Assembly: GCF_020382885.2 (NCBI RefSeq) | Contig: NC_058515.1 | Location: 4,633,223 to 4,697,222 of the forward strand | Length of the DNA: 64,000 bases | Reading direction: 5' to 3' | From: Scatophagus argus | Taxonomy: Eukaryota > Chordata > Actinopteri > Scatophagidae | Notes under the pieces: model-generated | The model's input: only the letters and a program-made list of their open reading frames with translations | Databases searched by the model: none | What the model was told of the DNA's origin: nothing | Shown here: positions 9,653 through 55,545 of the stretch, piece after piece | How the letters are laid out: each line of letters begins with the position of its first letter | How positions within the stretch are numbered: position 1 is the first letter of the stretch | Translations under genes and position numbers: made by a program

Positions 9653-9871
9653 CACACATGCAATTCCCTCTCAGTCAGAAGCTAATTTATAGGCCAATGT
9701 AGAGAAAATTTGCCAGACAGGTCTTAAATACTAGGACTGGTACTAACGTCATCTTGTCTCTCTCTTCTCTCTATATTCTCCCCTCATCTATCTATCTCTT
9801 CTTTCTCTACATTCTCCTTTCTACCCCCCCACCTTCTTCCCACATCCATCTGTGTTTCTGCAAAATTTCAG

Positions 9872-10057
9872 GCTTCCTCAGTACTGGTGATCAGTCCGCT
9901 AAAGGGAACTATGGCCTTCTGGACCAGATTCAGGCCCTCCGTTGGCTCAATGAGAACATCGGCCACTTCGGAGGAGACCCAGAGAGGATCACCATCTTCG
10001 GCTCTGGAGCTGGGGCATCCTGCGTCAACCTCCTCATCCTCTCACACCATTCAGAGG
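9872..10057 (+). CDS. nlgn2: nlgn2 exon: nucleophile-elbow region
   Basis: Encodes [20 protein letters not shown] through [10 protein letters not shown]. It starts in phase 1 (the first G of Gly comes from the missing upstream exon) after ttcag and ends at a GTAATT donor. The elbow reads FGSGAGAS. True cholinesterases have GESAG, so the catalytic serine is a glycine, as in all neuroligins. Confidence 0.95.
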
Positions 10058-13000
10058 GTAATTGAAGACTCTGTTGCATTGGGTAGCTTTATTTCTTTAG
10101 GTGTTTCTTACAGTGCAAGCGTTAATGTAGATTGAAAAACACTCAAGCATAAGTTTCCCACCAAACATGGGATTCCTGTAACATCGCTTGACTAGGTCGG
10201 GACTGCTTACATGAAATCCAGCTGATAAAGTATAGTTTCAGTCTCCGTCTCAGTGCACACCTGCATGTTCAGTTCATCAGTTCACTGAAAGTTCTTTGAA
10301 AAACGAATGGTATTTTTTGCTTGAATTTCTTGTATTATGATCAGTATGTCATAATGACCCGTGTATTATTCGATATAAAATGGAATCATAGCACCAAGGA
10401 CCTGCTATAGTCGTGTGGTTGAATGGAAACTCCGCTAGCAGCATTCAGCCAGGAAAGTGTTAGGTCCTGTGATGCTCACTTGACACCTCTATCCTCAAAG
10501 GAAAAGACTGCTTGCCCTGTGAACTGAAGAATTTAAGCAGTCATGTGGCTAATGAGTGAGTCCAGGTTTGATCCAGGTTACATCGTTCATGTCTATAGAG
10601 GATAAACGACACTGGAGCTCCAACATTAGCCCACATTACCTGACTTGGCGAGCACTCCTGGCTCTGTTAACAGTCAGCTGCTCTGCAGCGGATTGGCTCA
10701 CCCTCCATTGAAGACCTACATCCATCTGACCTCACGCTCCCAATTACCAACAACACACCCCGAGGGCTAAGTGTTAACATTGCACCACCAAAAGAGAGAG
10801 GCCTACGGACCAATCGACTTTGATCTGAATTGAGATCTGTGTGGCTGACGACCTGCAGCCAAATGGTCACGCACTCGCTGCCTTTGATCATGCCGTTCCT
10901 GAAGCTGTCCTCCTCCAATCGTAACTTCTCTGTTCTCTCCGCTGCTCGAGGACTCTCCTTCAATATTTCTCTCCTCTGTTCATTTTCCGTCTCGCACGCA
11001 CAAACTGCAAAGGACAGAAACAGGGAAGAAATGGAGGGTGAAAAGAAAGAGAGATTAGAGGGAGCGTGTTCACACAACCACACATCTGATTCAATCACCG
11101 CTCTGTGTGTGTGTGTGTGCAGCACCGAACAAAAGTCGGACATGTCTCTAACTTTAACTCCTAGTGTCTTGCATAGATGTGCCGTGAGAGCTAATGTGTG
11201 TCATCAAAGCTTGCGTGAGCATCTGTTGCACTGCTGCCTTGTGGCCACTTCTGTTAACCTTTCATATCATCCCAGACACACCCAACCTTTTTTCCTATAC
11301 TGGCAGGTGACCCACTTAGGAGTTAGACACGTACTTTTATTGCGTGGTAACAGTGATCACAGAGTTTTTATGGTCTGTCTAAAGAAGAAGAAGAAGGAAA
11401 TCTTCAGTAGATGTACAGTACGTAAGATTAAAAAATTGGAAAAACAGCAAATAACTTGTGAACTTGTCGAGGACTTGAAAGTTGAACTCACATGTTATTC
11501 TGAAGAATTTTCTTAGTTTACATAAACATTACTCACACTTTTATATTTTGGGAAAAGAGGACTGAGAGCACTCTTAAAGGTCCAGTGTGTAGGATTTAAA
11601 AATTGGATCCAAAACTTGTTGTGTTTTTGTTACTTCAGAATAAGTCCACCATGTTGCAATATTTAAGAATTGATTGTGGTTATGAAATCTTATCTAACTC
11701 CCAAAAAGTAAGTGAGGAAATAGATTCTCTAAAATGTTGCACTTGAAATTTGAGTAATTTTATTCTTAGCTAGCCAAGACTGTTTGTACAGTCTTTCCAC
11801 CGTCTGTCCAAAAACCCACCAATGTTTGTTTGTTTACTTTTAGATGACAGCCAGTACAATTGACAGTCATTGTAGTTTAATCATTCATTTTTCAGGGGAG
11901 CTCCATTTTTAGCAGCAGAGGGAAATCCTGTACTAACCCCATGTCTCCTGTTGCTGACAACCAACCCCCTCACACTGCCACCTGTCCATTCTCATGCTTT
12001 GTCATCACCCCATCATCTTCATCATCCTCGTCTTCATCAGCATCTAACATCATCAGCCCTCTAGATGCCGCCTGTCTGTCACACTCCCTCCTCTCCCCCG
12101 TCTGGGACACCAGGTAAGGAGTCTGTCATCCCCACCCTTAAGGCACACCAATCATGTCAGCGACACAGCATCACAAATCAAGCCAGACAGGTGAGACGCA
12201 CAGGATGGAGGGAGATGTTGTAAGTGATACTGATATGATGAAGCGTGGGGGATATATAGAGGGGTAGACAGTATCCATGGCATCCTTTTAAGAGTGTTTA
12301 AGGCAAAAGGCGGTGAGGTAATGACATTCTCAAGTGAGGAGAAAGAGGACAGAAAATGCACTGACATGGCATTTTGGAAAAGAGAGGTAGCCAAATAGAA
12401 GAATGTACTAAGCAGGGAAGGCAAAAGGCACTTAGTGAGTAAAACCAAAACTGATTTTGAAGACAAATTAAATAATGCATAGCTCCCACCTCTTGTCTGT
12501 TTCTCCCTCACTGTCTCTATGCAGATATGTAAGCATAGCCATTTCCAAGGTGCTTCTTACTACACTCGACAAACATATAAATGCGATGTTTTTGTTTCTG
12601 CTCCCATTTTTCAGTTGAACTAAAAGATTTAAGACTTTCTTACACTTAAATCTTAAATCTTTCAATCCAGCTTGTGAAAAATGGGAGCCAAAAACAAAAG
12701 TGTTGTGTTTATATATTTTTGTTGACTGTATAATTGATTTTTTCAGGGAAAGGGGGCTCTGTAACTGTGCTTAATAATTAACTGACCAATCTTTAGCCCA
12801 GGAGAGGAAAGAGAAAGAAAAAAGGAGAGGAAACGAATGAGGCAGGCGGCCCCTTAACAAGCCACTTGAGTGGTTCAAGCAGCACAGGACAGGCAGAACT
12901 AAAGACACAGAGAGAGAAAGAGAGAAAGGGTGAGAAGGAGGAAAAACACAGCTAGAGAGGCTGAGAGAAGAAACAGCCAGTCCAAGACAGAGGAAAATGA

Positions 13001-16000
13001 CTCTTTTGACATCTCAGATGAGCTTATTCCAGCTCCCTCCTCCTTTATTCTCTCGTCTTTTTTGTCTTGTTTTGTGGACAGCACCCTAACACACTAACAT
13101 GTTTTTGGTCTCTAGTCTCATCCTGTGTCTACCAGATTTGTCCCAGTGAAAATGGTTCCTTGAAAAAAAGTCAAAATTGGTACTTTTTTAATAAAGGCAA
13201 GTGGAGATAGAGAAACGTGGTTTGCACTTTAAGTAGTCATAGCCGTCATAGCCAAGACAGACTTTGTAAAGCTCTATCCTGCCTGCAAAAATGCTAAAAA
13301 AAAAACTAATTAAAAAAAATATTTAGTGTGATCATCGTCATTTAACAATTTATCCCTGAGTAAAGTTAGATAAATACCCCATCTTTCCCAACTGTGGTTT
13401 CAGGTCTGTTCCACAGGGCCATAGCTCAGAGTGGAACTGCCATCTCCAGCTGGTCTGTCAACTACCAGCCCCTCAAGTACACCAAGATTCTTGCCCGTAA
13501 GGTTGGCTGCACCTACACAGAGACGGCTGACCTGGTTGACTGCCTGAGGCGCAAGAACTTCAGGGAGCTGGTGGACCAGGACATCCAGCCAGCTCGTTAC
13601 CACATTGCCTTTGGCCCCGTGGTGGATGGTGACGTCGTTCCGGACGATCCCGAGATCCTCATGCAGCAGGTGAGAGTCTGTCACTGGTATCAAGGATGAC
13701 ACTGCAGATATGGTCTATACTAGATTTTTACTGTGCAAGTAGAGTGACTTGAGCTGTGATGACACATCAGACAGAGGAGAACACAAAGAACTTGTACTAG
13801 TAGGTGTGAGTGTGACCTTTCCACAGTGACATGACATTCACCAGCTGGTGTGAAATCACACCCTAAACGCTGTAACACAATGAAAAACAGCTGTGGCATT
13901 GATGGTGTAGATAGCTTCTGTGGTATATTTTAAACCCATGGTTCAGAACAGGCAGAAGGCAATTGCTCCCTCTGGTGTCCCAAGAGGGGGGCAAAAGTGC
14001 CCTCTTGGATGCCTCTGTGGTAGATAAAACGTGATAAAGTGCCCTCAAGGATGGCCCAATATGCAAACAACATGATGAATGTCCTCTCACGTGTCCTTTC
14101 AGTGGGGTAAACATAATGTAGTGCAATAGTAGGTGTCCTTAAAATGGAGAAAATGCAGTCCAGTGCAATATAAGCTGCTAGAAAATTAGCTGCTTTCCAT
14201 GTGTCTCTAAACGGTTTAATAGTTATAGTTCCCTGTGTGTTTTTATTACAGAGGTACGATAGCTACAGCATCTGAGTCACCGTAAAATATAATTTAAAAA
14301 ATTTAATACAAAGACAATTTTAATATTATGTAACTGTTTCACCTTAAATGCATCATGACTTGCTGCGCACAGGTGCCCCACTGCATACAGCTGGTGCCCT
14401 TTTTATTTTTTCACCCCCGCCCCTCAGACAGCCTGAGTCCACCACTGATCATCTCGTACATACAAAGTATTCGATGCAGGGTGCATGTCTGGGTTGTGAG
14501 CACTTCAAAGAGTGAGTTTCTCCTCTTAGCTTCATTCGCAAAACTATGAAAGGTCCTGTAATGTGAAACAGTACAGTAGTTCACAAGAACAAGGAAAAGG
14601 TTGGTAACAGTCCAGAGAATGAAATTCTTTATTTCATATTACATGACGTGCAGGTTTGGGAACCACTGCTTTTAATTATAAAACAGTGTATCCACAAGTC
14701 ATGTCACATTTTGCATCAACTCACTTTTCCTTTCACATATTTGATCTCTTAACCTGTTGCTGAAGTCAGTAAGTTTAATTTGAAAGTGATTATGTGAAAA
14801 TGATGGAAATGGCTCCAAAAAAAGAGGAAGAAAATGAGACACACTGAAGGAAAGCTGGTGAAAAGAAATACAAAACACAACACAAAATAAGAACTGCCCT
14901 TTAACCAATGACATTCTGTCTATTAGAGAGGCTGGAAATTTGTGTGACTTTTGCAGCTTGTTTGCAGCTTGTCTGATTTGAATTTAAAGATGACTGTACT
15001 CACCAGCACGCTTGGTTGTAGAGAATTTGGTTTTATGTCATGCACAGAAACTCTGCCCTTTGAATACAATGTAAGCACTAAACATATTTTCCCCTTTTGC
15101 ACCACCAGGGGGAGTTCCTCAACTATGACATGCTAATAGGAGTGAACCAAGGAGAGGGTCTGAAGTTTGTGGATGACAGTGAGGACAATGACGGCATCTC
15201 AGCTGCAGCATTTGACTACACCATCTCTAACTTTGTAGACAACCTCTATGGCTACCCTGAAGGTGAGGCACACCAACATTATACTTCCTTTGAAACTTTA
15301 AAGGCTCCCATATTATGTCCTCTACAGCCTCTCATGATGAAACCTTGCAGTGTTGTCATTGTTGTTTAAGTTTATTAGTGGCCTAATTGGATGAAATCTT
15401 CCTCTCTGCACACACAGACTGAAATGAATGGAATTTTTTCCTTATAAAAAAAAAAAACATGGTTATTAAAATAAACAGCATAAGTTATTGTCACAGTGCG
15501 ATGATGAGCTATACATGTGATATAATATGATAAATGTGTTGCTGTACCTGAGGTGACATTGCACGCTACATGAAGGGATGCTTGCTTTTTGCTGACATTA
15601 TTGTATGCTTTCTACAAAAAAAAATAACGTCAGCACCAAGGTATTCAAAGCTGCAGCTCCCAGCAGAAAGGGAAATTTTTATTTACGTAGGCAAAGAATA
15701 AGAAAAGAGATTTAAAAAAAAATGTGAGCCCAACAAAGTGTATCAACCCAGACAGGCATACTAAAGAGATCGCCTATCATCGAGATTATCTTTCACCGTG
15801 GTAGGTCTGTGCTTTGGCCTTTGAGTCTCTGTGGGCACTAATGCTGTCACTCATCATCCCCCAGGCATGCAGCTCCCAATCACAGTGTTGTTGTTCCTAA
15901 CAGATCAGCTGGCAAACCCCTCACAGCGAGCCACAGTCAAAATACGGACACACTTGGATAATGCAGTCACGATCCCTCTCAAGTGCCTGTCACTCATTCT

Positions 16001-17766
16001 GCTCTCTGAGAGGCATATTCTCTCTTTTGGCCTTTGTGTTGCTCTGTCTGTCCTTTCAGTTCTCCATATCTCTCATACATACAAATACATTTTCTATTCT
16101 AGTTTAACTTAGCAACGCGTACCTCTATCTTCCCCCACCACTGGTTTCAATTTCTTTTGATCATTCTCATCTCTCAGAATGTTCTGTCCCTGTCATTATG
16201 TTCCTCTTAACTTATCCCAATTTTCTCTTTTTTCCCTTTCCTTTGTCACTTGTCTTTTCTCCCCTCCCACACCTTACCCTCCAGGCAAAGACATCCTGAG
16301 GGAGACCATTAAATTCATGTACACGGACTGGGCAGACAGAGACAATGGCGATATGCGAAGGAAGACCCTCTTAGCTCTGTTTACAGATCACCAGTGGGTG
16401 GCGCCAGCAGTGGCCACTGCCAAACTCCATGCCGAGTTTCAGTCCCCAGTTTACTTTTACACGTTCTACCACCACTGCCAGACTGAGACGCGACCTGAAT
16501 GGGCTGACGCCGCCCATGGAGATGAGATACCATATGTGTTTGGCGTGCCCATGATAGGTGCCACAGACCTGTTCCCATGCAACTTCTCAAAGAATGATGT
16601 GATGTTGAGCGCTGTGGTCATGACTTACTGGACCAACTTTGCCAAGACTGGGTAGGCCTTGTTAATTTTGTTATTTCATTTGTTCTCTTTCTGTAGTGTG
16701 ACTGGTGTATTACCCCCACAGTAGTAGAGTTTGAATTATCTGCCTCAAGATTTTGATTCCCTAATAACAAGAGGGCTGTACCCATGGATCGGGGCTGATG
16801 TTGGTAGAGTTGTTAAAGGTTTAGTTCCTTGTCTCACTTTGTTGTAAATTCATACCAAAAGAAATGAACCACGCTGATTAAAACCTTGACTTGAAATCTA
16901 TAACTGAGTTGTCCTCTCTGTCCTCCCTTAGGGACCCCAACCTTCCAGTCCCTCAGGATACCAAATTCATTCACACCAAGCCCAACCGTTTTGAAGAGGT
17001 CATCTGGACCAAGTTCAACTCAAAGGACAAGCAATATCTCCACATCGGTTTAAAACCTCGTGTTAGAGACAACTACAGGGCCAACAAAGTGGCCTTTTGG
17101 CTGGAATTAGTCCCCCACCTGCATAGTCTGCATGAGGAGCTCTTCTCCACCACTACTCGTTCACCACCAGGCCCTTTCCCAGGGACCCACAGACCGTGGC
17201 CCAGAACACCTGGCCCTCGCACCACTCGTCACCCCTATCCTACCTTCCCCTCTGATCCTGAGCCCGAGGGTTCAGAGCGTCCACACCAGGACCTGTTCCC
17301 TGGAGACACCCGGGACTACTCCACTGAGCTGAGTGTGACAGTTGCTGTGGGGGCATCGCTCCTCTTCCTCAACATCCTGGCCTTTGCTGCTCTCTACTAC
17401 AAGCGTGACAAGCGGCATGAGATGCGACGTCACCGGCTGTCTCCTCAGCGGGGCGGCCCTGCCAATGACCTGGCCCACAGCCAGGAGGAGGAGATCATGT
17501 CCCTGCAGATGAAACACTCAGAGCATGATGCTCACCATGACATGGAGCCACTCCGGCCCCATGACATTCTACGGCCTGCCTGCCCACCTGACTACACACT
17601 GGCTCTGCGCCGTGCCCCCGACGACGTGCCACTGATGACACCTAACACCATCACCATGATCCCCAGTACTATCACCAGCATGCAGCCTCTTCATGCCTTC
17701 AACACCTTCCCCTCCACTGGCCACAACAACACCCTGCCCCATCCCCACTCCACCACCAGGGTATAG
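9872..17766 (+). CDS. nlgn2: Neuroligin-2, 3' coding part (five exons)
   Basis: Postsynaptic adhesion protein that binds presynaptic neurexins; NLGN2 acts at inhibitory synapses. Exons: 9872-10057, 13404-13669, 15109-15262, 16285-16651, 16932-17766 (stop). All introns are GT/AG with matching phases, and the exons give about 601 residues. Seen in sequence: the C-terminal half of a cholinesterase-like domain, with the nucleophile motif changed to FGSGAG; a Pro/Thr-rich stalk; a single membrane helix ([18 protein letters not shown]); a gephyrin-binding type motif ([14 protein letters not shown]); and the C-terminal PDZ ligand STTRV. The tail [13 protein letters not shown] and [11 protein letters not shown] match NLGN2 better than NLGN1, 3 or 4 as I recall them. 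Teleosts have nlgn2a and nlgn2b, and I cannot tell which this is. The signal peptide and N-terminal half lie upstream of the window. Confidence 0.93.
11573..11940. mobile_element. MITE copy, AGGTCCAGTGTGTAGGA family
   Basis: The left end TTAAAGGTCCAGTGTGTAGG is intact. The right end is only suggested by AAATCCTGTACTAA near 11926, a decayed form of the expected AAATCCTACACACTGG. It is the same family as the copy at 2597, and the right boundary is uncertain. Confidence 0.5.
12563..12728. mobile_element. Palindromic MITE with TA target-site duplication
   Basis: The ends CACTCGACAAA and (reversed) CAGTCAACAAA are flanked by TA at 12561-12562 and 12729-12730. The arms pair over about 60 bases around TTTTTGTTTCTGCTCCCATT and its complement, with roughly 85-90 percent identity by eye. 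It resembles an abundant fish Tc1/mariner-type MITE containing ACACTTTTGTTTTTG-CTCCCATTTTTCA; this copy is a short, internally deleted form. Confidence 0.75.
13404..13669 (+). CDS. nlgn2: nlgn2 exon: central cholinesterase-like domain
   Basis: Encodes [20 protein letters not shown] to DDPEILMQQ. The acceptor is gtttcag and the donor CAG|GTGAGA. It holds the conserved [20 protein letters not shown] segment of neuroligins. The antisense open frame across this exon is a shadow. Confidence 0.95.
13670..15108 (+). other. nlgn2: nlgn2 intron
   Basis: Non-coding. I see no further gene, and repeat content is low apart from AT-rich stretches. Confidence 0.7.
15109..15262 (+). CDS. nlgn2: nlgn2 exon: [16 protein letters not shown] segment
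   Basis: Encodes [20 protein letters not shown] through NLYGYPE. The acceptor is accaccag and the donor GAAG|GTGAGG. This segment of the neuroligin cholinesterase fold carries the VNQGEG motif. Confidence 0.94.
15263..16284 (+). other. nlgn2: nlgn2 intron
   Basis: Non-coding, with a long pyrimidine-rich stretch (about 16120-16284) leading to the next exon. No other feature is seen. Confidence 0.7.
16285..16651 (+). CDS. nlgn2: nlgn2 exon: [15 protein letters not shown] segment
   Basis: Encodes the part with [20 protein letters not shown], the [10 protein letters not shown] loop and [11 protein letters not shown]. It follows a strong pyrimidine tract (acceptor ccctccag) and ends at [18 protein letters not shown] is the position of the cholinesterase-fold histidine, retained here although the serine is absent. 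Confidence 0.95.
16932..17766 (+). CDS. nlgn2: nlgn2 last coding exon: stalk, membrane helix, PDZ ligand
   Basis: Starts at [20 protein letters not shown] and stops at TAG 17764-17766. In order it encodes the end of the cholinesterase-like domain ([20 protein letters not shown]), a Thr/Pro/Arg-rich stalk with short repeats such as [13 protein letters not shown], one membrane helix, a basic stop-transfer YKRDKR, and a cytoplasmic tail with the gephyrin-type motif and the type I PDZ ligand TTRV. Confidence 0.95.
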
Positions 17767-23492: not shown

Positions 23493-24487
23493 GTAATTGT
23501 GTTCATCATTTGAATTAACCACTCGAAGTATTGACCCTTTAACGTGAGCAAAATTATCCAGTTAATTAGCTTAGCTGATCCATTGCCTCTGCGCTCAATG
23601 GCATTAGCTAGTTAGCTAGCTGTATGGCTATTCCCATTTGTGAGTGTTCAGCACGTTAGTCCGACATTCAGACATATTGTGTATTTACATTCAATTTCAC
23701 CGTTGGTTTAAGGATGCCTGGATGACAAAGAGGTTATTAGATGTTATTAACGGGGAGAGCGTTGCTAAAGCTTGACTAGCCACATCGAGACACGCCTTTC
23801 TTGTATTTAAAGCAATACGAATGTTCCTTTTGCGTTAAGTTGCTGCCACTTGCTGCTCATGTCCTCAACATCATCATAAGGATAGTTGTGTAGTGTTTCT
23901 TGTAGCGTCGGGGCTGAAAAGATTATTTTCATTCTCCATGAAGTATTTGTTTGGTGGTCGAAAATAGTGAAAATCAAAGGCGATGTTTAAGTTTAAAACT
24001 GAAAGATGTTCAGTTTACATTGATACAAAGAAAAGTGGCGAATCACCATGGGAGGCACAGGAATTAGGAAATGTTTCATTTCTAATTGTTTTAATTTTTC
24101 TGCCGATCGGCTGACTTACAGCAGGATGTAGAGCAAAACCTTTTAGTCATTTGACGAAATGAATCAACAACTGTCATAGATGGATATTTTCCTATAGTTT
24201 AAAGGAAGGCAGTTGTGAGGATCTGTTGCTTTTTATTATCTTATGATATATTAAACTATATCTGTGGGTTTTAACTGTCGGTCAGAGGTTGAAGATGGGA
24301 AATGATGTTTTTTTTTTTTTTCACTCTCATTTTATAGACCAAAATATTCATTTAAAATATAATCAGCATATTAAGAGATAATGAAAATAACTGTGAGTTG
24401 CAGCTCAGATGTCTGTATGTTTGTATGTTAAGATTCTGTCTGCTAACTTTATTTTCGTAGCCTCTCTATTGGCCCCAGCTGAGAAAT

Positions 24488-24940
24488 ATGACAGAACCAC
24501 GCAACCCGGGGATGTCCTCCATCTCTCAAACAGCTCCAGTTCACACTGACTCCACCTCTCCGGCTGTAGAAATGGACCCAGTGGAGTACACCCTTCGGAA
24601 ACGCCTCCCCCGGAAGCTCCCAAAGAGACGGAATGACGTCTATGTCAACATGAAGACTGATTTCCGAGCTCAGTTGGCTCGCTGTCAGAAGCTGCTGGAA
24701 AGTGGGGGTCACAGGGAGATCTGCGTCCATGGCCTGGGCCTGGCGATCAACAGGGCTATCAACATTGCCCTCCAGCTGCAGGCCAGTAGCCAGGGGGTGC
24801 TGCAGCTGGCTGCAAACACCTCCACGGTGGAGCTGGTGGACGATCTGGAGCCTGAAGATCCTGACGAAGCTGGGGAGCCCATGACGCGTACGCGCAACAA
24901 CTCGGCCATTCATATTAAGGTTTTCTACCCTGACCCCTAG
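24488..24940 (+). CDS. pop7: Ribonuclease P/MRP protein subunit POP7 (RPP20)
   Basis: 150 residues in one exon. POP7 forms a heterodimer with RPP25 and binds the P3 domain of the RNase P and RNase MRP RNAs in the nucleolus, where these particles mature tRNA and rRNA precursors. The sequence shows a low-complexity N-terminus (residues 1-30), a basic segment TLRKRLPRKLPKRRNDVYVN, and then an Alba-type fold with the conserved HGLGLAINRAINIALQLQ and the final strand NSAIHIKVFYPDP. Human POP7 is 140 residues, so the length fits. An acceptor about 25 bases before the ATG implies a 5' UTR intron. The antisense frame across this exon is a shadow. Confidence 0.96.
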   Translation: MTEPRNPGMSSISQTAPVHTDSTSPAVEMDPVEYTLRKRLPRKLPKRRNDVYVNMKTDFRAQLARCQKLLESGGHREICVHGLGLAINRAINIALQLQASSQGVLQLAANTSTVELVDDLEPEDPDEAGEPMTRTRNNSAIHIKVFYPDP

Positions 24941-43378: not shown

Positions 43379-45812
43379 TTAGTGATTGATTGACAGATGA
43401 CCTGTCCAATGTGAGCGTGGCAGGGTGTGAAGTGGCCCAACAGTTGCATAAGCTTCATGCTTCTTTTCTGTCAAAAATACATACACAACTTGCTTAGTGA
43501 CCATGTAACTGCGCAGGATACTTATATCAATCAAACGAGTCGCTGTAGTCACGCTATTGTTTGTATTCGGCACAACTTTTTTAAAAAAAATAACCAAAAC
43601 TGCATGGAGTGCATTTGTTTTGAGGGCTGAGCAACCTGTATCGGGTTGAGGTGTGGGTCCAGGGTGGTCACTTTTCTCCTCTTCAGTCTGTTTAAAGCAG
43701 CCCTTGGAGTTGCAGCACTCACACAGAGCACTGTCTCCCTCTGTGGTACGCCAGCTTAATGGCAGAGAAACACCCTGATAATACATCTCAGCTAACAAAA
43801 CACACTTTACAACACTGGATGCTAGACACTGAAATTGACAATCACATGGAAGACCAAATCATGATGAAATGATTTAACAACTGCAGATCATCAACAGTTT
43901 GACAGCCTAACCTAAATGTGGGCAAATGGAAGAAGCAGGCTTTATCAAGGTGGCTGTGTGAGGTTTCTTTCAGCTTGGCTCTGAGGTGGCAACTGATGAA
44001 CAACTAGAAGAAAAAAAAAAGCCAAAATAATAAAACAAAATTTTATGAAGAATTGATTTTCAGCAGACCAAACTAATGACAATACATGCTCATAATTATC
44101 ATTCAGAAAATAACAAACCAGCTATTGTACAATGAGTGTAATTACCTGTTCCCCAGACCCCTGGCTGAAGTGGAAGGCTTGGACGCTGAAGCATAGTCTG
44201 TTATCTTGCTTCCTAGGGAGGAATTTAGATGAGGACCTCGGCACTACACTGTCCATAAGACATCTGTAATGGATGAGCAACACATGCTGAAATGACTCTG
44301 TAAATGAAATTTAGACGTGGTGTGTCAAACCTAGCTTCCCTTCAGAAGTAAATAAATTAATTGATATTAAATAAATAAATTGTAAAGTTAAAAAAAAATG
44401 AAACATTATTTGACCGAGTTACTTTCTTATCCAGCGGGACAGATTTACCCATGCTCAGTGATAAACTTGTATCTTGGCAATGAGAGAGGGTCAGGCTTCA
44501 GCGTTGCAACACAATAGTCCACATACAGAGTAAGAGGTGGGTGCAGAGGGGCCTCCACACTGGCCTCCAAAAACACTGCTTCCCCCTGCTGATACACCAA
44601 GGAACTGCGTAAAGAGGTACAGCTATCTGCACAAGAGCAAACACACATTTTTTTTTTAATCCCAGTTTCATATAGATTCCAGATAAAATAACACTGCCAC
44701 ATGTTATCAGAAAAATCTTTCACTAATACAGTCTAGATTCAATGAGATAGTGTTTTTACCTGCCATGGTACGAAGGGAGAAGCGCAGAAGGCCAAAGACA
44801 CTGACAGTGGATGTCATGGGCAGCCAGGTTGGGGTTAACGGTTCTCCATTCACTGTCTGCTTTCTGTGCTCACATGAAAACAAAGCACAGGTTATTAGAT
44901 TATTACAGATACACAGTGTGGATGTCAAGCTAATGCAACTCTAACTTTGTTATATTTAATTATGATGCAGCATAAGAAACTTGAACTAAAGAAAATCAGT
45001 ACTCTGCAGCTACACAAGTGTGGATTTATATAGTAATGTGCAATCAGCCTTACCTCTTATAACGGCACTCAATGGGTATGATAGTAGTTGGCCTTCTTAT
45101 GATCATACTGCCTGTGGAAGTGGGAACCACAGCAGGAAACAGTAGTAGCTGGTTGGAATAAACAAGCCACTCATCATGAACCTGGGCGGTAGGAATTATA
45201 AAGAAATCAGCAAAACCATTAATAGTTAAAAAATAAATAATAATAAAAAAAAATGTTCCATTCACTGCAACTACACTATTTTGGGTATTATGAATACCAA
45301 AGAAAGTAATAAACACTGTAGGCCAACATAAAAGGCAAAGCTGAAATTGTGTGAAAGTCAAAGTGTTTGTGGCCCTGTGAAAGAGCTGTGCATTATATGC
45401 GTTAGACACATGAATAACATACTGAAACGTTATTCAAGCTTTGCATATCTTAATTCAGGGTGTCCCTCTCTCTGGACAAGAGAAATGTTACTATCTGAGC
45501 TTTTCCTCGCTAACCTCCCTCTTGTCTTACACTTGACTCAGTCCCACAGTCTTGAAGCCCTGCGGAGATGACCATTTCACGTTCGGTCGTCGGTCCCTGT
45601 GGTACGCAGGACCTTTGCTGTGTAGAGTTTGCCCCAAGTCGAACATGCTCAGGTTTGAACGGAATACGCCTCTCTTCGAAAAACTGTCGCTTTACGGTTA
45701 TTCTCACGTTTACTTCCCCGCATTTTATTTCAAGCCCGGCACTCTTTTCAGCACTAGAAACGCCGGACACATATAACAATACTACGAATACGAAGACGAG
45801 TCGTGTCGCCAT
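43379..45812 (-). CDS. ZP3-like zona pellucida protein (eight exons)
   Basis: Egg-coat (chorion) glycoprotein of the ZP3 class; its ZP module polymerises into filaments. Exons in transcript order: 45531-45812, 45054-45181, 44760-44863, 44449-44626, 44146-44263, 43912-44003, 43636-43754, 43379-43467. They total 1110 nt, giving 369 residues plus stop, and all junctions are GT/AG and in phase. Seen: signal peptide MATRLVFVFVVLLYVSGVSS; ZP-N start IKCGEVNVRITV; LVYSNQLLLFP; PIECRYKR (human PIECRYPR); PTWLPMTSTV; LYVDYCVATLKPDP (human LFVDHCVATPTPD); ISCHLRAKL; and CECCNSKGC (human CQCCNKGDC). The last exon gives EAYATVGPL, matching human DVTVGPL, then stops without a membrane helix. Human ZP3 also has eight coding exons. 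I cannot assign the fish paralogue letter. I chose the ATG at 45812 because the longer frame begins only with TTG. Confidence 0.92.
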
Positions 45813-46455
45813 TTTTAAAGAAATAACAAGCAAGGAGTGTTGTTCTGGCGTGCACTATATAGCGCTTATTGTATCTACAGACTGCCAAATTATACAACTA
45901 CAACTTTAAAAAAAATAGATCATGATTATTAGATGAATTATGTGAATTATATGAAAAACTAGGAAAAACATAAATATAAATAAATATGTATATATATAAA
46001 TTGTTACTATAAAAATGCTACAAAATCTCGATATAGATTTGCCGGTGCGCATGCTCCTTATTAGTCCACTGTTTCCACAATTAAACAGACAACATTAACG
46101 CAGACTTTTGCAGATGAAAGAAATCTATAATATTGATGTGTCAAAATAAATTTCAAACTTTCAAACGAGTCTCGCTTAGCAGGACCTATCTCCACGTTTT
46201 GTTATCAAATGAAGTTAGAAGTTTGCAAACATGAACAGAGCTGACGAAAAGCTCCTGAAGGTATCATTATGGGTGGGAACTTTGTTAAGGCGGAACACGT
46301 GTTATTTCAAGTGCGCTGAAGGGACAGTTATTGCAGTTGCAACAGACAGCTGCCGGATGAATAATCAATGCTGTGAACAGCTGAGAGGAGTTTTAAATCA
46401 AACGCATTGAGCTAAATGCGGAATGTATGCTGGTAGATAGAGACATATTGTAAAA
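45813..46455. promoter_or_regulatory. Shared divergent promoter region, ZP3-like / ufsp1
   Basis: 643 bases separate two start codons pointing away from each other. A CACGTG E-box lies at 46296-46301, about 155 bases before the ufsp1 ATG. The middle (45905-46020) is AT-rich. Oocyte bHLH factors (FIGLA type) use E-boxes at zona genes, but the link here is only an inference. Confidence 0.4.
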
Positions 46456-47196
46456 ATGGATAAAAAGTTTGTAGCAGCATCTGAGAAGATTGACTGGGGA
46501 GAAAGTGAAGCGGAAGAGGGGAAGATTATGAAGAAGACCAAAACATTATCAATGAATGTCCACATCGGTCTTCCTAATCCAGTGGCAGGTCCTGTGAAAT
46601 GTTCCCTGATAAAAGGAGACTATATGTACTTCCATTATGGCTGTGATGGACAAGACGACAGGGGCTGGGGATGTGGTTACCGTACCATTCAGACAATGGC
46701 TTCCTGGCTTTGCCATAACTGGTTTCCACTTAAGGACAAACACAGACCTCCACCAAGCCTTCCGGAAATACAGCAAGCCTTGGTCATCATGGGTGACAAA
46801 CCAGGCTCGTTCTCATGCTCCAGGGAGTGGATAGGAACATTTGAAGCCTCTCTGGTACTGGACTATTTTTATGACGTTCCCTGTAAATTGGTGCACGTTA
46901 GAGGTGGAGGAGCAGAGCTGGAGCATGTTGCAGTGGAAGAGCTCCATCAGCACTTTGAGAAGTATGGATCTCCTGTCATGATGGGAGGGGACAGGGATAA
47001 CTCTTCTAAGGGGATATTAGGGGTGTGCACTGGACCCAACGGGAGCTACTTGTTAGTCGTTGATCCTCACTACTATGGCTGTCAGTTGGAGAAGACAGAG
47101 CTGCAGGGGCGGGGTTGGGTGACATGGAAAAGAGTTTCATCTCTGGATCAGTCTTCATTTTATAATCTGTGTATGCCTCAGACTGCCAAAAAATGA
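46456..47196 (+). CDS. ufsp1: UFM1-specific protease 1
   Basis: Cysteine protease of family C78 that matures the UFM1 precursor and removes UFM1 from targets. It is intronless, 246 residues. Seen: the conserved entry motif LIKGDYMYFHYGCDGQDDRG; the catalytic cysteine Cys73 in RGWGCGYRTIQT; the Asp203-Pro-His205 pair in VVDPHYYG, corresponding to Asp175 and His177 of mouse UfSP1; and YFYDVPCKLVHVRGGG. The N-terminal 30 residues are charged and unconserved. The human gene also lies in the EPO/ACHE region and was long annotated without its catalytic part; this fish copy has a full domain from an ordinary ATG. It is divergent from the ZP3-like gene. Confidence 0.96.
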   Translation: MDKKFVAASEKIDWGESEAEEGKIMKKTKTLSMNVHIGLPNPVAGPVKCSLIKGDYMYFHYGCDGQDDRGWGCGYRTIQTMASWLCHNWFPLKDKHRPPPSLPEIQQALVIMGDKPGSFSCSREWIGTFEASLVLDYFYDVPCKLVHVRGGGAELEHVAVEELHQHFEKYGSPVMMGGDRDNSSKGILGVCTGPNGSYLLVVDPHYYGCQLEKTELQGRGWVTWKRVSSLDQSSFYNLCMPQTAKK

Positions 47197-48080: not shown

Positions 48081-49379
48081 TCAGTTATCTGGCACACAGT
48101 CATTATAGAAAATCTGGAAGTTCTTGTCCACATCCAACCTCCCCTTGAGAAATTTTTCCAGATTCTTCAGAGGAACCTCCACCATGTGGTTGTTGACACG
48201 ATCATTCAGCCCATAAGCTGCGAACACAGGGAACTTGTAGCGCACAAAATATGGTGCATTTTGGTCAAATTCAGTGCAGCAGTAGGCCGACCACATATAC
48301 TCTGGTACAGCTACCCTGTCTTGGTTGTTGCGACGGATGGTGTGACCTGAGGTGGTGACCCCAGTAACCACAAAGGCTTTACCACGACAGTAGTTGTTGA
48401 GACGTTTGCGGATGAGGTCCTGGTGTTCTGCCCAGGGACCCAAGTTGAACTCCCTTATCTGGGGAACCACGTTCGTCAAGCTGTAAGTGGAGGCTTTGTC
48501 CAGAGGGTCAGCCTGATGCTCGTCCGGATTTAGCTGGCCTCGTTCATACTGAACCACATCAGCATAGTCCTCTAGGACTGCCTGGGTGTCCTCAAAGTTC
48601 ATATGCATGCTTGAAGATTGAGGGAAGGGCTCCATGTTACTGCTGCTCTTTTCTGAGGCCAGCTACAGCGAGAGACAGAGCAAAAGCACAATATTGCTGC
48701 TAATGTTATTACTTGTAAAAAGTGGGAAAGAATTGTTTCACATTTTCAGACAATTTGCCATTTTAACACATTTGAAACGTGAAAGTGATCAATTTGCATA
48801 ACTCTGCAGCTTAAATGATCAATGCAACAGTATCTCAGATACCATTCACAGCCAATAAAGTAGCTTATCTCAGCCTTGCTTTGTTGCCCATAGCAACAGT
48901 AATAAGAGTTGCTCCAGCTCTTTAGACAGTATACCACATGCACAGAAAATGCACATCTACCTTCAGGGGATTCTGACTGCAACTTGGACTGAAAACAGAC
49001 TGTAATAAATCTAAACTAACATTCTGACTTTGATTAAGCTTGAAAGAGTGCTCACCTGGGGCTCAAACATCCAAGGGAAGTCCACCTTCTTCTCCCCATC
49101 TGACTTCTTGAACGTATACGCAGAATAGATGGGGATGTGTTTTTGGGGGTCGTATAGGGTAACATAGCGAGGTTTATCCTCATACCTCTGGCAGATCTTC
49201 TTAAAGGAGTTGCCAAGATATCCTCGGGGTGGAGTGCCCATGTACAGAGAGTCCTTACAGCGCTCAGCATGGTTGAAGTCCCCCACCACTCCTGCCTGGG
49301 CCTCCTGCAGCAACACACAGGTCAGCACGGTCACCACAGCTGCCAGCGGTAAGGCACAGTTTTCTGATGTAGGTATCAT
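48081..49379 (-). CDS. ENDOD1-like secreted protein, copy A
   Basis: Endonuclease domain-containing 1-like protein of the DNA/RNA non-specific endonuclease fold. Exons 49056-49379 and 48081-48662 give 301 residues, joined at CAG|GTGAGC and CTGTAG. Seen: signal peptide (MIPTSENCALPLAAVVTVLT...), the N-terminal KPRYVTLYDPQKHIPIYSAY block, then QYERGQLNPDEHQADPLDKA, STYSLTNVVPQIREFN, RKRLNNYCRGKAFVVTGVTT and WSAYCC. Active nucleases of this fold have D-R-G-H; here it is E-R-G-Q, so the general-base histidine is absent, while the metal-site Asn of TLTN is kept. The gene is first in the tandem array. An upstream in-frame extension starts only with GTG, so the ATG at 49379 is preferred. Catalytic activity is doubtful. 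Confidence 0.9.
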
Positions 49380-50245
49380 CACAAAAGGTCTCTTTTCCTT
49401 GTTCTTACAACTTTTATGTCTCTTTAGACTTTTCTTTGTCACCTGTAACACACCACTGTAATTCACTACTGTCTAACAAGCACAGCCTCTGTCCCAGCTA
49501 TATCAGACTCTACACCTTGAGCTGAGAGCAAACTGGTCCCTCATTGTAAAGTCTTTTCCATATTCAAAGTGACACAAGAGTTGTAGCAGTAATTCAAAAG
49601 CAGTGAATGTTATCAAGCACCTAGAGCATTTTATTACTGTGAGCTACAAAAGTGAAGATGATACTGACTTTATGCTCTCGTGAAAAATGAGAACTTTTAT
49701 TATATATTAGTTAAGTGCAAATAGCTTAGTAATGAAATGAAAGAAAGTGAAGGTATTGCAATGTAAACGTGTCAGAGAAGAGGAGATCAGATCTCTTATT
49801 TACATTGCACTTCTATTACACAAATGTAAAGTGATCATCTGTTTCGGCTGTGTCTTTGGAGGGGGATCAAACAAAAGCATATAACCTCTGCAGAGCAAAC
49901 TCTTAAGTCCACTCTGTTCACCCGCTATGAATGATGGTCCAATGCTCTAGAGTCTTTAGTATATGTCACAAGGACAGCAGAAACAGCAGAAACCCTGTCA
50001 AAATGATCACTGTGAATTTCAGTTAGATCAGTGGCTGTCAGTGCTGTACGGATGGTATGTAGATTTGAAATCAATACCAAACAAGTCCTCAAGGTTTTAT
50101 TTACATTTTAGAGAATGTCTGTAGTTTTCACTTAAATGAGTTAACTTGTGAAAGAGAATCAAAGATAAGCAATCCAGTGATATCACATATTCTTGAATCA
50201 GTCAAAATGACACATCGAGGACAATTTAATGACAGTTTGCAAACG
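49380..50245. other. Intergenic between ENDOD1-like A and B
   Basis: No gene is seen. It is AT-rich and contains the probable promoter of copy A. Confidence 0.55.
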
Positions 50246-50251
50246 TTTATT
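50246..50251 (-). terminator. Candidate poly(A) signal AATAAA for ENDOD1-like B
   Basis: A canonical AATAAA on the - strand about 430 bases after the copy B stop. Confidence 0.55.
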
Positions 50252-50681
50252 GTTGCAGATTAGACAAAGCAGGTACATTTTTGTTGCATTTTCAATTAGT
50301 CTAATGTCCACTACGACTAATATTATTTTTAAATCAAGTGTTCAAAATACAGTGAGAGTACTGTGAAACTGTTTAGTGATTCAAAGTCCATGTTTTTGTG
50401 ATGTAATTTAGCTGCTCCAACAGATCTCTGTCACTGAAGACATTTTGACTCGTAACAGCAGGAAATGAAAAGCCGTAAATAACAACATTAATCATGGCTT
50501 AATCGCATTTAGCTGCTTCAGACTCACTGTCATGACTTACTGGGGCACTGGAATAGAAGAGAACCATTATCGATGTTATCAGTGACACCTGAGGGTTTCT
50601 TTTAAGTCAAAAAGTATCCCTACTGAAGAAGAAACATAACATCACCAAACTAGTAGATCTGCCTTACACTAAAATATTTGC

Positions 50682-51781
50682 CTACTCAGTTTTACTGGAT
50701 GCAGGTGGGACACAGTCATTCACAAAGATCTGAAAGTTTTGGTCTACAAAGGTTGTCTTCTTGAGGAACTCCTTCAGCTTCTGGACAGAGAGTTCCACCA
50801 CCTCGTTGTTCTCCTCCTCATTGAGGCCATAGTGAGCAAAAGAGGGGAACTTGTAGCGCTCATTATAAGGTGCGTTGTGGTCATAGTCAGCACAACAATA
50901 AGCCGACCACAAATATGTGGGCACTGCAATGCGCTTGATGTTTTCCCTACGGATCATCTTCCCGGAGGTGGTGATGCCCGTGACAATGTAAGCTGTTCCA
51001 CGACAGTAGTTGTTAAGCCGTTTACGGATGATGTGCTCCTGTTTATTCCAGACTCTGTTGTTGAAGTCAGGCACCATAGGCACAACGTTGGTGAGGGTGT
51101 AGGTGGAGGCCTTGTCATTTGGATCGTCCTGATGCTCATCTGGGTTGAGGGTACCACGCTCATAAAGGACGGCATTTGTGTAATCATCCAGAACAGCTTG
51201 GGCATCTTCAAAATTCATGTGGACGTAACCACTTGGGAAAGGCTGCATCTCATCTGTATCAGAGGATGTGGATAACTGTGTAGGCAGGCATACAGACAGA
51301 CAAACAGACCCAGAGAAAATGAGAAGATGAGGTTAGAAACATGTTACAATGTGATGACACGCTACCTGCATAAAATGAAGCATTTGCATAAGAATGCTAG
51401 TATCATTTGAGAACAGAAAAGCTGCATAATTCCATCCATGCTGAAATACTTTCTTACCATGTTCAGGTTTCTTTTTTTTTTCTTTACCTGAGGTTCGTAC
51501 ATCCACGGAACATCGACACATTTCTCCCCGTCTGAGCGTTTGAAAGTGTAGGCAGAGTACACAGGGATATGGTCCACAGTACTGTACAGCGTCACGTAGC
51601 GTGGCTTCTTGTTGTAAAGTTGACAAATAAACTGGAGGGACTGGTGCTCCAGCCCAGTCGGTGTTGTTGCCATGTAGAGGAATTCTCTGCACTCTGGAGA
51701 CAGCTCTTTTTCTACTCTCCCTCTTACCGCCAATGTTATCATGTTGACAAGCAGGAGAGCCGTCTGCACCCACAATGCCAT
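50682..51781 (-). CDS. ENDOD1-like secreted protein, copy B
   Basis: Exons 51488-51781 and 50682-51275 give 295 residues with the same two-exon plan and phase as copy A. Seen: signal peptide MALWVQTALLLVNMITLAVR, YVTLYSTVDHIPVYSAYTFK, DVPWMYEPQ, LYERGTLNPDEHQDDPNDKA, STYTLTNVVPMVPDFN, RKRLNNYCRGTAYIVTGITT and WSAYCC. The DRGH position reads E-R-G-T, again without histidine. It is closest to copy A in its second exon. A 178-codon open frame on the + strand (50739-51275) is the antisense shadow of this exon. Confidence 0.9.
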
Positions 51782-53762
51782 GGTCAAGAGGGTTTGATGT
51801 TGCTCTGGTGAGAAGTTACAGCTGTAAAATTTAAAGTCAAGTGTGTCTTTCTGTGAGCTTGTACAATTGCTTGAAATGTGTCTGCACGTCCACATGGAGC
51901 TCGGTTAAAACAGCTAACGTAGGTTTCACACTCTGCTCTGTGTAATCAGGACTCAACATGCAAAACAATTCACTTCTTACACATCAGCAGATCCACCCAC
52001 AGCTAGAGCAAGTGCTGCTTCACAGCTAATAGAGAAGACTTATGTGTTTCTCTCACAAATTACAAATTAGACTAAAATAATAGTTTGAAAGTATAATTAA
52101 GGTAAAATTAGAGTATCTGCTCACATAAAATTGCCTTTTTTGGATAGGAGACAGCAGAGATTGATGATGGTCTCTCAGCAAATTCAAACCAGGGGGGTTG
52201 CAGTTTTATGGTATGTGTTTTTGACAAGCCGACAGGTTGCCCCATTAAGCCTCAAACAATGTGCAGTTACTTACTTGCTGTTAATGACTCTCACTTCATG
52301 TCATGACTTTGAATTAAACAGGAACACAGGTTGCATGTCACCATGTTTTATAACACATATGCATAGCAGCCTAGAACATGCTAAAAATCAGCATACAGGG
52401 GAAGTATTCATAGGTGAAACACTTGTCCGCTGAGCTGGACTGGTGTTGGTCAGGGTTTTACTGACCCTGTATAGCATTTGACTAATCTTATTCAAACAGT
52501 GAAATCGTTATATAGCTGTTAAATTGCTCACAAAGGGATGTAAATTTGTTCTTAGCAGTCTGGTCATTCTGGGGGAAAAAAACAAAAAAGATTTGTCACT
52601 TACTTTTACACCAAAATCCTTTAAGTTGACCTACTAATCACATCAATTATGTATGTAGAATAAATAAAGACTGTCCTTCAATAATAAAACAAAGTTTACT
52701 GATCATTTGTTCAAAATCGAAAAAGTGGAAATGAAATGCAAAACGCATGAAGGACCCTCCCTAGAGTCAGTGTTTGGTTTGTCCATTCTGGACTACTGTA
52801 GAAAGTAACGAAACCTAATTTTACAGATTTATAAATGCAAGGTGATTTTACTACAAAATAGGGGATGAGAAACCATAACATGAAATGATATGAAGACTCA
52901 ACCGATGCACCACATACCATCTCTCATTGCAGATGAGTTACTGATCTAAACCACTGTCAGTAATCAGTGATCTCCATTTACAATTTCAAAACTTTAGGAG
53001 AGACAGAAGAAAGCATCCACAGTAAAAGTTGTAGCCTATTTTAAATTGATTTAAATCATAGGTTTATTCATTATTAACATATTTTTGTATGTAAGTTGTA
53101 ACTTTTCTGCACACAGTGTCTGTTGGAATCACTATATATTTTGCTTAGATTTTCTTTTATTTTCACTCAGTATTTTCCTTTCGATATTCTGTTTGATAAA
53201 TATTGAAGTGTGATTGGTTCCACACTGCTTTACTTTGATGGGCAAATGTATGAGAAGCAGGAAGCCACTCAGAGACAAAATAAGAGCAAATGAACAACTG
53301 GATTGTCCAATCCAAATAGCCAAGGCCTAATCTAACTTAGTTTACAAGTGGAGTTTCTTCTCTATGAAATACATGACATTAACATATGAAAAGAGTTACA
53401 TTATGGGAAATCAAGAGTTTAAGGAGACTTTATAATAAATTCATTGTATCTCAGGTTCTCATTTTGATAATTATTTCCATAATCTATATAGGTCCTCCAA
53501 TTTTATGGAAGTGTGATACCAAAGTGGTAGAGTGTCTCATTAATGTGTAGGTACACGTCATTTCCTTTGGTGGTGTTGATTGGTCTATACTGTGGTCCAG
53601 TATCTCACACTACCACTTAGAGACACAATCTGAATCTAAAACTGCCCCATTTGAGACAAAATTAAGAGCTATGTTAGACATGAAAGAGCACTTTCCCTCC
53701 CTAATATAATTCTTATTTAATTAATTCCAAAACACATGAAGCCAGGACTATTTAACACTGCT
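51782..53762. other. Intergenic between ENDOD1-like B and C
   Basis: About 2 kb of AT-rich sequence without a supported gene or clear repeat. Confidence 0.55.
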
Positions 53763-53768
53763 TTTATT
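53763..53768 (-). terminator. Candidate poly(A) signal AATAAA for ENDOD1-like C
   Basis: A - strand AATAAA about 80 bases after the stop of copy C. Confidence 0.6.
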
Positions 53769-53846
53769 AAAGTTTACATGAGTTAGTTCTATTTATACAG
53801 TAGCTGCTTTTCCTCACAGGCATCATCTGTGACTGTGCATGCAGGT

Positions 53847-55545
53847 TCAAGATGTTGAGCCCTCGGTCAGCTCTCTCTTCTTTTTGAAGGTATTTTCTGA
53901 CACACAGCCCTTGTAGAAAATAGTCAGGTCACTGCCTAAGTCTGTCTGGCTCTTCAGAAAGCTCTCCAGAGTCTTCAGAGGGACTTCCACCACACTGTGG
54001 TCATTCTGTTCATTCAGTGCATAACCCCCATAACTTGGGAACATGAACCTCACCTCATAGGGAGAGTTCGGATCAAACTGTGGGCAGCAGTAAGCCAACC
54101 ATACATGTTTTGGGATCGCCAAGCGGTCCCTGTTATCTCGCTGGATGGTTGCCCCAGAAACAGTCACCCCTGTCACCATGAAAGAGTTGCCGTGGCAGAA
54201 GTTGTTGAGGCGACGGCGAATGATGTCCAAGTATGGGTTCCAGGAAGTATCCAGGAAGTGTGTGATTAATGGGACTACGTTGGTCAGAGTATATGTGGAG
54301 GACTTATCATCTGGGTCTGATTGGTGCAGGTCTGGGTTCAGTAGGCCCCGTCTGTATTCTACAGCATCTGTGTAGTCGTCCAACACGGCCTGACTGTCCT
54401 CAATCAGAGGAGGGGTGTCTTCAGTAAGGGGAAGCACTCTCATGTTGCCACTCTCGTCATCAGAAACCAACTACAGGGAAAATAAAGAAATATGTTGTTT
54501 ATCATTCAAGTGACTGTATTCCAAAAACCAAGCAACTAAGCAATCTGCAGATATTTTGGGCAAAATTCAGTTTCCCTTCTCAAATCTCATGTCAGTATGT
54601 TTCACCCCTGATGGCCTCAGCAGCAACTATTTCTAATGAATAGTGATGCTGATGTTAAAAATGTTCTTTAAAATACATGTAGGATATGTGCACTTACTTC
54701 TTGTCATTAGTTAGAGCTCATGTTTTGACTGTAAATATGTAATGTTTTTGTTTGTGGTGAGGAGCTGTCTTTGTGCTAAGCTAAGCAACATATTTAGCCT
54801 ACAAACGTGAGAGTGATATCAGTCCTCTCATCTAACTGAAAAGGCTAAAAAGCAAATAGTCCTATTTTACAAACTATTCCTTGCGAGAGATGCGTGTGTA
54901 AGAGCGTGCTTGGGTGATTGACAGGTGATTTGACTTATCAGGTGGTAATTTCATCTTGTTTGTTTGGTGTGAGCTTCATACGCATCTTCCTTACCAAATT
55001 CCGCCTCCATTAACTGGCAAAATGGCAGCCATCAAATCCAGTCTTTAAAATGTCCCTGTGCAAGCCCATCTGCTGATGTCTCCAGTCTTCTTCTTAAGTT
55101 TATACATACTCAAGCAAGCTTACTGACTGATCAGTATTGCCCCCACCACCACAAACAAACAAACAAACAAACACACAAACATTCAGCTTCTCTCTGGCTT
55201 AATACTAAGTGACAAATAAACTAAATACATCAGTGCTGCTCTCTCTACCTGTGGCTCATACATCCATGGCGTGTTCATCCTCTTCTTCCCATCACTCTTC
55301 TTAAAGATGTAGGCTGAGTAGAGGGGGAGGTGGCGACTGCTGTCATACAAAGTGGCATAGCGCAGTTTGTCTGCATACTTCTGGCAAATCCTCCTCAGGC
55401 TGGTTCCTTTCATCCCTGCAGGTGGTGTCTGCATGTAGAAGAAATGTCTGCAGTCTTTGAAGTTGTTCGACACACTGGCACTCACCAGGGCTGACGTTAT
55501 CAGCATGGAGAAAGGCAGGATGTTGTTGCAAAACAGATGCATCAT
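53847..55545 (-). CDS. ENDOD1-like secreted protein, copy C
   Basis: Exons 55249-55545 and 53847-54470 give 306 residues. Seen: a hydrophobic start MMHLFCNNILPFSMLITSAL, YATLYDSSRHLPLYSAYIFK, NTPWMYEPQ, EYRRGLLNPDLHQSDPDDKS, STYTLTNVVPLITHF, RRRLNNFCHGNSFMVTGVTV and WLAYCC. The motif is the most altered of the three (R-R-G-L: both the acidic residue and the histidine are gone). The C-terminus has an extra basic tail (KKKRELTEG). Intron 1 is about 780 bases and contains a CAAA-type simple repeat near 55150. An in-frame upstream extension exists, but the M52-type start at 55545 fits the signal peptide. Confidence 0.88.

Follow-up and report, generated by a model that had tools for sequence, protein, structure and literature searches.

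Background

In the excerpts of the published sources that bear on it, vertebrate ENDOD1 is described as a protein with a signal peptide and one endonuclease domain, and C-terminal transmembrane segments are described for the human protein (PMC9126970). Human ENDOD1 is reported to function as part of an RNF26 complex through which cGAS-STING signalling is tuned (PMC7332293), and Tang et al. term ENDOD1 an atypical nuclease (PMC9126970). Here we analyse three neighbouring ENDOD1-like genes, A, B and C, which lie on the minus strand at positions 48081-55545 of a 64,000-nucleotide window on contig C23 of the Scatophagus argus genome. Their products resemble vertebrate ENDOD1 in having one endonuclease domain behind a probable signal peptide, but unlike the human protein they are 295-306 residues long with no later hydrophobic segment, and they lack the general-base histidine of classical nucleases.

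The non-specific nucleases Serratia nuclease and Anabaena NucA belong to the same family as A, but both carry the histidine that is missing from A, B and C. EndoG and EXOG are also of this family according to an exon-2 profile of eight family members (best entries E 3.4e-7 and 6.1e-7, respectively). Both are mitochondrial by their entry names, whereas A, B and C are probably secreted, and the EndoG-like gene of S. argus itself reads DRGH at the catalytic motif. Autotaxin (ENPP2), a secreted vertebrate protein, provides a precedent for a NUC-like domain without catalysis. It is a distant relative in sequence that matches the exon-2 profile weakly (E 0.045), and its NUC-like domain is embedded in a larger enzyme, whereas A, B and C have a single domain.

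ENDOD1-like transcripts respond to immune challenge in other fish. In the excerpted tables for Atlantic cod spleen after poly(I:C), such a transcript is listed at 9.94-fold at 6 hours (16 degrees) and at 11.53-fold (16 degrees) and 14.24-fold (10 degrees) at 24 hours (PMC3534563), and turbot endod1 is reported to be more highly expressed in a resistant family and to be induced by Aeromonas salmonicida (PMC11659141).

Three intact ENDOD1-like genes lack the catalytic histidine

Genes A, B and C are each intact and consist of two coding exons separated by a GT-AG intron in phase 0, directly after the peptide EPQ. The exon coordinates and splice sites bear out an earlier note on this DNA, which had described three adjacent two-exon genes with a common intron position. 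Exon 1 of gene A (49056-49379) contains the start codon, a hydrophobic, signal-like N-terminus and the first part of the NUC domain and ends in MFEPQ, and exon 2 (48084-48662, or from 48081 with the stop codon) contains the motif ERGQ, with its Gln codon at 48534-48536. In gene B, exon 1 (51488-51781) ends in MYEPQ and exon 2 (50685-51275, or from 50682 with the stop codon) reads ERGT, with the Thr codon at 51150-51152. Exon 1 of gene C (55249-55545) likewise ends in MYEPQ, and its exon 2 (53850-54470, or from 53847 with the stop codon) reads RRGL, with the Leu codon at 54342-54344. The encoded proteins have 301 (A), 295 (B) and 306 (C) residues.

All three proteins match the Pfam family Endonuclease_NS (PF01223) above its curated cut-off of 23 bits, with 76.8 bits for A (E 2.5e-21), 70.3 for B (2.4e-19) and 41.9 for C (1.2e-10). 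The Gln of ERGQ (A residue 151), the Thr of ERGT (B residue 140) and the Leu of RRGL (C residue 142) occupy the column of the general-base histidine of NucA and Serratia nuclease. When A is aligned by HMMER to NucA and to Serratia nuclease, the Gln sits on the His of RGH, and the active-site region is aligned at E 0.0087 for NucA and 0.02 for Serratia nuclease. The exon-2 profile also puts the motif column on the NucA histidine and on the matching place in EndoG; three EndoG rows in this alignment show Ala there, presumably because they are engineered mutants. The replacement of the DRGH histidine in all three genes, as proposed earlier, is therefore upheld by alignments to NucA, Serratia nuclease and EndoG. 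We also considered a catalytic motif lying elsewhere in A, B and C, which is ruled out by the agreement of the NucA and Serratia alignments (for A) with the NucA and EndoG alignments (for the profile).

The flanking motifs LNPDxHQ, STYxLTNVVP, RLNNxC and AYCC are present in all three proteins as had been stated. Because the intron position and most of these scaffold motifs are common to the histidine-bearing paralogues of the same genome, they mark the whole family rather than the trio. Thus, as judged from their sequences, A, B and C are Endonuclease_NS proteins by score and ENDOD1-like by intron position and kinship, without the histidine of a classical nuclease.

Paralogues and a probable single loss

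The PF01223 profile was searched against the S. argus genome (570,666,677 bases in 48 contigs). It gave 12 exon-level matches, nine in ENDOD1-like genes and three on contig C4 at a gene that reads DRGH and is called EndoG-like here from that motif; two of these three were looked at closely. More diverged copies may have escaped a search of this kind. The initial trio is extended here to five genes without the histidine and four with it in one genome. The two further histidine-less genes, D on contig C7 and E on C14, both read ERGQ. The histidine-bearing genes are F on C12 (TKGH), G on C21 (SRGH), H on C23 at 15.0 Mb (DRGH) and I on C5 (DRGH, with extra introns). The assignment of all nine as ENDOD1-like rests on sequence kinship and on the phase-0 intron after EPQ, which is seen in eight genes and, from its donor and acceptor, in the C5 gene. 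Other vertebrate ENDOD1 genes have an intron after EPQ as well. Frames, splice sites and stop codons are intact in all five histidine-less genes.

A hydropathy scan, which is not a signal-peptide predictor, found a hydrophobic N-terminal stretch in A through H (the N-terminus of gene I is missing). No 15-residue stretch with a mean hydropathy above 1.6 was found after residue 45 in any of A through I, with H cut at residue 313. The hydrophobic N-termini of A, B and C that had been called signal peptides are thus present, and on their account the three proteins are probably secreted, with a signal peptide that may be cleaved. N-glycosylation sequons are absent from the five histidine-less proteins and number four in F, four in G, two in H and one in I, with H counted to residue 313 and I counted without its N-terminus.

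In a nine-gene tree (LG+G4 model), the split between histidine-less and histidine-bearing genes is supported by a Shimodaira-Hasegawa-like approximate likelihood ratio test (SH-aLRT) value of 98.6 and an ultrafast bootstrap (UFBoot) value of 94, and without gene I the same split receives 97.6 and 87. Within this genome, the five histidine-less genes therefore group together, as expected if loss of the histidine defines a clade. B and the RGQ gene D form a group (98.5/92). Identities are 63% between A and E, 61% between B and D and 57% between A and B, and C, at 45-51% to the others, has diverged furthest among the five. A recent tandem triplication is ruled out because A and B are each nearer to a gene on another contig than to each other, which indicates that the tandem order is old.

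The trees are unrooted, and we take the histidine to be ancestral because bacterial relatives carry it. Of 32 bacterial loci, 29 fit a scaffold pattern that does not require the histidine and all 29 have it, while three did not fit; these loci are the best-scoring ones, some near-identical and two (L016 and L017) apparently one gene, so that the sample leans to canonical enzymes. A prokaryote scan with the family alignment gave eight stretches, one of which is a relative, a NucA-like gene with DRGH. Among viral sequences, 27 stretches fit a pattern and none was a relative by tblastn. With this polarity, the histidine was probably lost once in the five-gene group: His would have changed to Gln in the common ancestor of A through E, and Gln would later have changed to Thr in B and to Leu in C.

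Gene H (L014:6214-8109), the histidine-bearing gene at 15.0 Mb, has an exon 2 that continues into long, mucin-like stretches rich in Thr and in Gly. It is a candidate for an active nuclease held in mucus.

Active-site columns and selection

We compared six active-site columns, numbered as in Serratia nuclease, between A, B, C, D and E and F, G, H and I, presuming the catalytic roles assigned to these columns (Gln114 being the least certain). The His column reads QTLQQ in A through E versus HHHH in F through I, the Gln114 column QMLQE versus QQQQ, the Asn119 column NNLNN versus NNNN and the Glu127 column QELQE versus EEEE. We take the metal-ligand Asn to be N119 in Serratia nuclease and N155 in NucA; it is present in A and B and is Leu in C. 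Asn110 and the arginine of the RG pair are retained in all five histidine-less genes, and F has Lys in place of that arginine. Gene C has Leu not only in the His column but also in the columns of the metal-ligand Asn, the Glu and the Gln. The motif changes had thus been described correctly before, but in C the departures extend to active-site positions beyond those then stated. Because its position was uncertain, the Arg57 equivalent was excluded from the column test that follows.

Fifty-three columns are invariant in F through I, five of them in the catalytic set. All of A through E keep one of these five versus 40 of the other 48 (Fisher p 0.007), and C alone keeps one of five versus 41 of 48 (p 0.005); because the genes are related and the five-column set was chosen after the motif had been seen, these p-values serve only as a guide. 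Selection was examined with our own codon model for the seven genes A through G (248 codons, fixed topology, five tests, uncorrected). The neutral value of omega = 1 was rejected on each histidine-less terminal branch, with likelihood ratio test statistics of 20.3 (A), 20.3 (B), 32.4 (C), 4.6 (D) and 12.1 (E). Synonymous sites are saturated in this model and several branch lengths lie at their bound, so that the omega values carry little meaning and the model serves solely to reject neutrality.

Interpretation and alternatives

On balance we think it probable, if by no means certain, that the five-gene ENDOD1-like group to which A, B and C belong consists of soluble, secreted pseudonucleases under purifying selection, with a possible role in defence. 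With the general-base histidine of the NUC (beta-beta-alpha metal) fold lost, cleavage would be absent or very low. Hydrolysis would have been given up and the NUC-fold protein retained for binding. With the metal-ligand Asn and the RG arginine, A and B may bind metal and nucleic acid but not cleave the latter. C, which lacks the His, Asn and Glu, most likely would not coordinate metal and probably serves only as a scaffold, perhaps as a partner protein or for ligand binding.

Several observations weigh against a group of retained pseudonucleases. The proposal that selection holds the fold over catalysis is sustained by the better conservation of the scaffold in C alone and in the five genes together, and by the rejection of neutrality; in A, B, D and E taken singly, however, the difference between catalytic and scaffold columns is non-significant (p 0.12 to 0.16). 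The choice of catalytic columns and the saturation described above count on the same side. In a mixture-model tree, support for the split between histidine-less and histidine-bearing genes falls to an SH-aLRT of 91 and a bootstrap of 64, with long-branch warnings. C lies nearest the histidine-bearing side with weak support (75/43). A structure predicted for exon 2 of A from an alignment with B and C had a mean predicted local distance difference test (pLDDT) score of 35.5 and was unusable. Of the six active-site columns, only His and Gln114 are changed in gene E, so that some activity is possible there. Chief among the counter-evidence, an ENDOD1 domain from Japanese flounder is reported to be active as a nuclease in vitro (Lyu et al. 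2016, doi 10.1016/j.fsi.2016.01.017, as cited in PMC7332293), and this activity could overturn the pseudonuclease reading if the flounder protein is of the RGQ type.

These last two points lead to the alternative that survives best, namely that the histidine-less proteins are active nucleases that are slower or differently tuned, with Gln at the base position and the metal ligand intact allowing slow hydrolysis within the family's range. Apart from the flounder activity, this idea draws on the retention in A, B, D and E of the Asn119 and Asn110 equivalents and of the RG arginine, together with the Glu in B and E. We nevertheless consider it unlikely, since retained catalysis would not be expected to produce the Thr in B, the Leu in C or the loss of both Asn and Glu in C, and since the Glu column is Gln in A and D.

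Far less probable is the replacement of the lost base by another histidine. The earlier note had suggested the conserved HQ histidine as a relocated catalytic residue, but the paralogues on C12, C21 and C5 have it too, with SMHQ in F, SLHH in G and NGHH in I in place of DEHQ, and only H differs, having Tyr in that column. With His in three of the four histidine-bearing paralogues, this residue is a feature of the family rather than a replacement, and it is ruled out as a relocated base. Two other columns have His in at least three of A through E and in none of F through I. The better candidate is A residue 81 (column 93, in HIPxYSAY of exon 1), where A through D have His instead of the Arg found in E through I. 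Second is A residue 128 (column 142): A, B and E have His here, C has Pro, D has Gln, and F through I have Asp or Gly. Neither column has His in all five genes, however, as Arg remains in E at the first and His is absent from C and D at the second, which moreover lies in a poorly conserved, gapped stretch. C also lacks the metal-ligand Asn and the Glu, both of which a relocated base would still need.

Least probable of all is that these are decaying duplicates that lost activity and are turning into pseudogenes. The divergence of C, greatest among the five, and the possible broken fourth copy in the interval from B to C speak for this, but the reading frames, splice sites and stop codons of A through E are intact, all five retain 40 of the 48 scaffold columns, and omega = 1 is rejected on every one of their terminal branches. 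The possible remnant of a fourth copy (52410-52469, minus strand) is itself weak: it reads QGQ-stop-NPDQHQ, with the stop directly after GQ, and came from a scan that also gave unrelated weak matches down to E 0.052. Its tblastn match has E 0.028 with A as the query, and a gapped match to 52523 has E 0.003 with the C14 gene as the query; by blastn, 25 of 31 bases are as in the C14 gene, with E 0.002. A search of a larger database gave E 0.058.

Possible roles and significance

If A, B and C are secreted pseudonucleases, they might act in extracellular defence by binding nucleic acid or pathogen ligands or by pairing with active paralogues. The induction of ENDOD1-like transcripts in cod and turbot and the part of human ENDOD1 in cGAS-STING signalling suggest a defence role, although the excerpted sources do not assign the fish transcripts to the histidine-less or the histidine-bearing clade. 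NUC enzymes are often dimers. A more specific version, which we offer only tentatively, is that a fish clade of secreted NUC-fold pseudonucleases descends from an active nuclease through a single His-to-Gln change, with A and B binding metal and nucleic acid without cutting and C acting as a protein partner that, for instance, pairs with RGH paralogues, so that the group tunes or senses extracellular nucleic acid in infection.

Should these proteins bind rather than cut, this fish would possess secreted decoys or sensors derived from a nuclease beside four paralogues that keep the catalytic histidine, and the group would offer a natural experiment on the NUC fold without catalysis. It would also bear on human ENDOD1, a cGAS-STING modulator termed an atypical nuclease and of unsettled enzymatic status in the excerpted sources. 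We found no published set of histidine-less fish ENDOD1 genes in the titles and abstract openings among the matches listed, although an earlier report may exist in print. Human ENDOD1 itself reads RGQ at the motif and has its intron after EPQ, which would make loss of the histidine old in the family and the present finding less novel.

Other features of the window

Gene A is adjoined by a plus-strand open frame with a Peptidase_C78 domain (46441-47196, Pfam E 2e-55), which we take to be UFSP1-like. A minus-strand open frame at 45513-45854 contains a ZP-N domain (Pfam E 3.3e-6), and the open frame at 24461-24937 is predicted to encode Rpp20, a POP7-like subunit of RNase P/MRP (Pfam E 2.7e-23). 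Pieces of the Carboxylesterase family, neuroligin-like by eye, extend over 9703-17763 on the plus strand; the piece at 9703-10062 matches the Pfam family with E 5e-30, and that at 16882-17763 matches with E 0.00032, under the cut-off.

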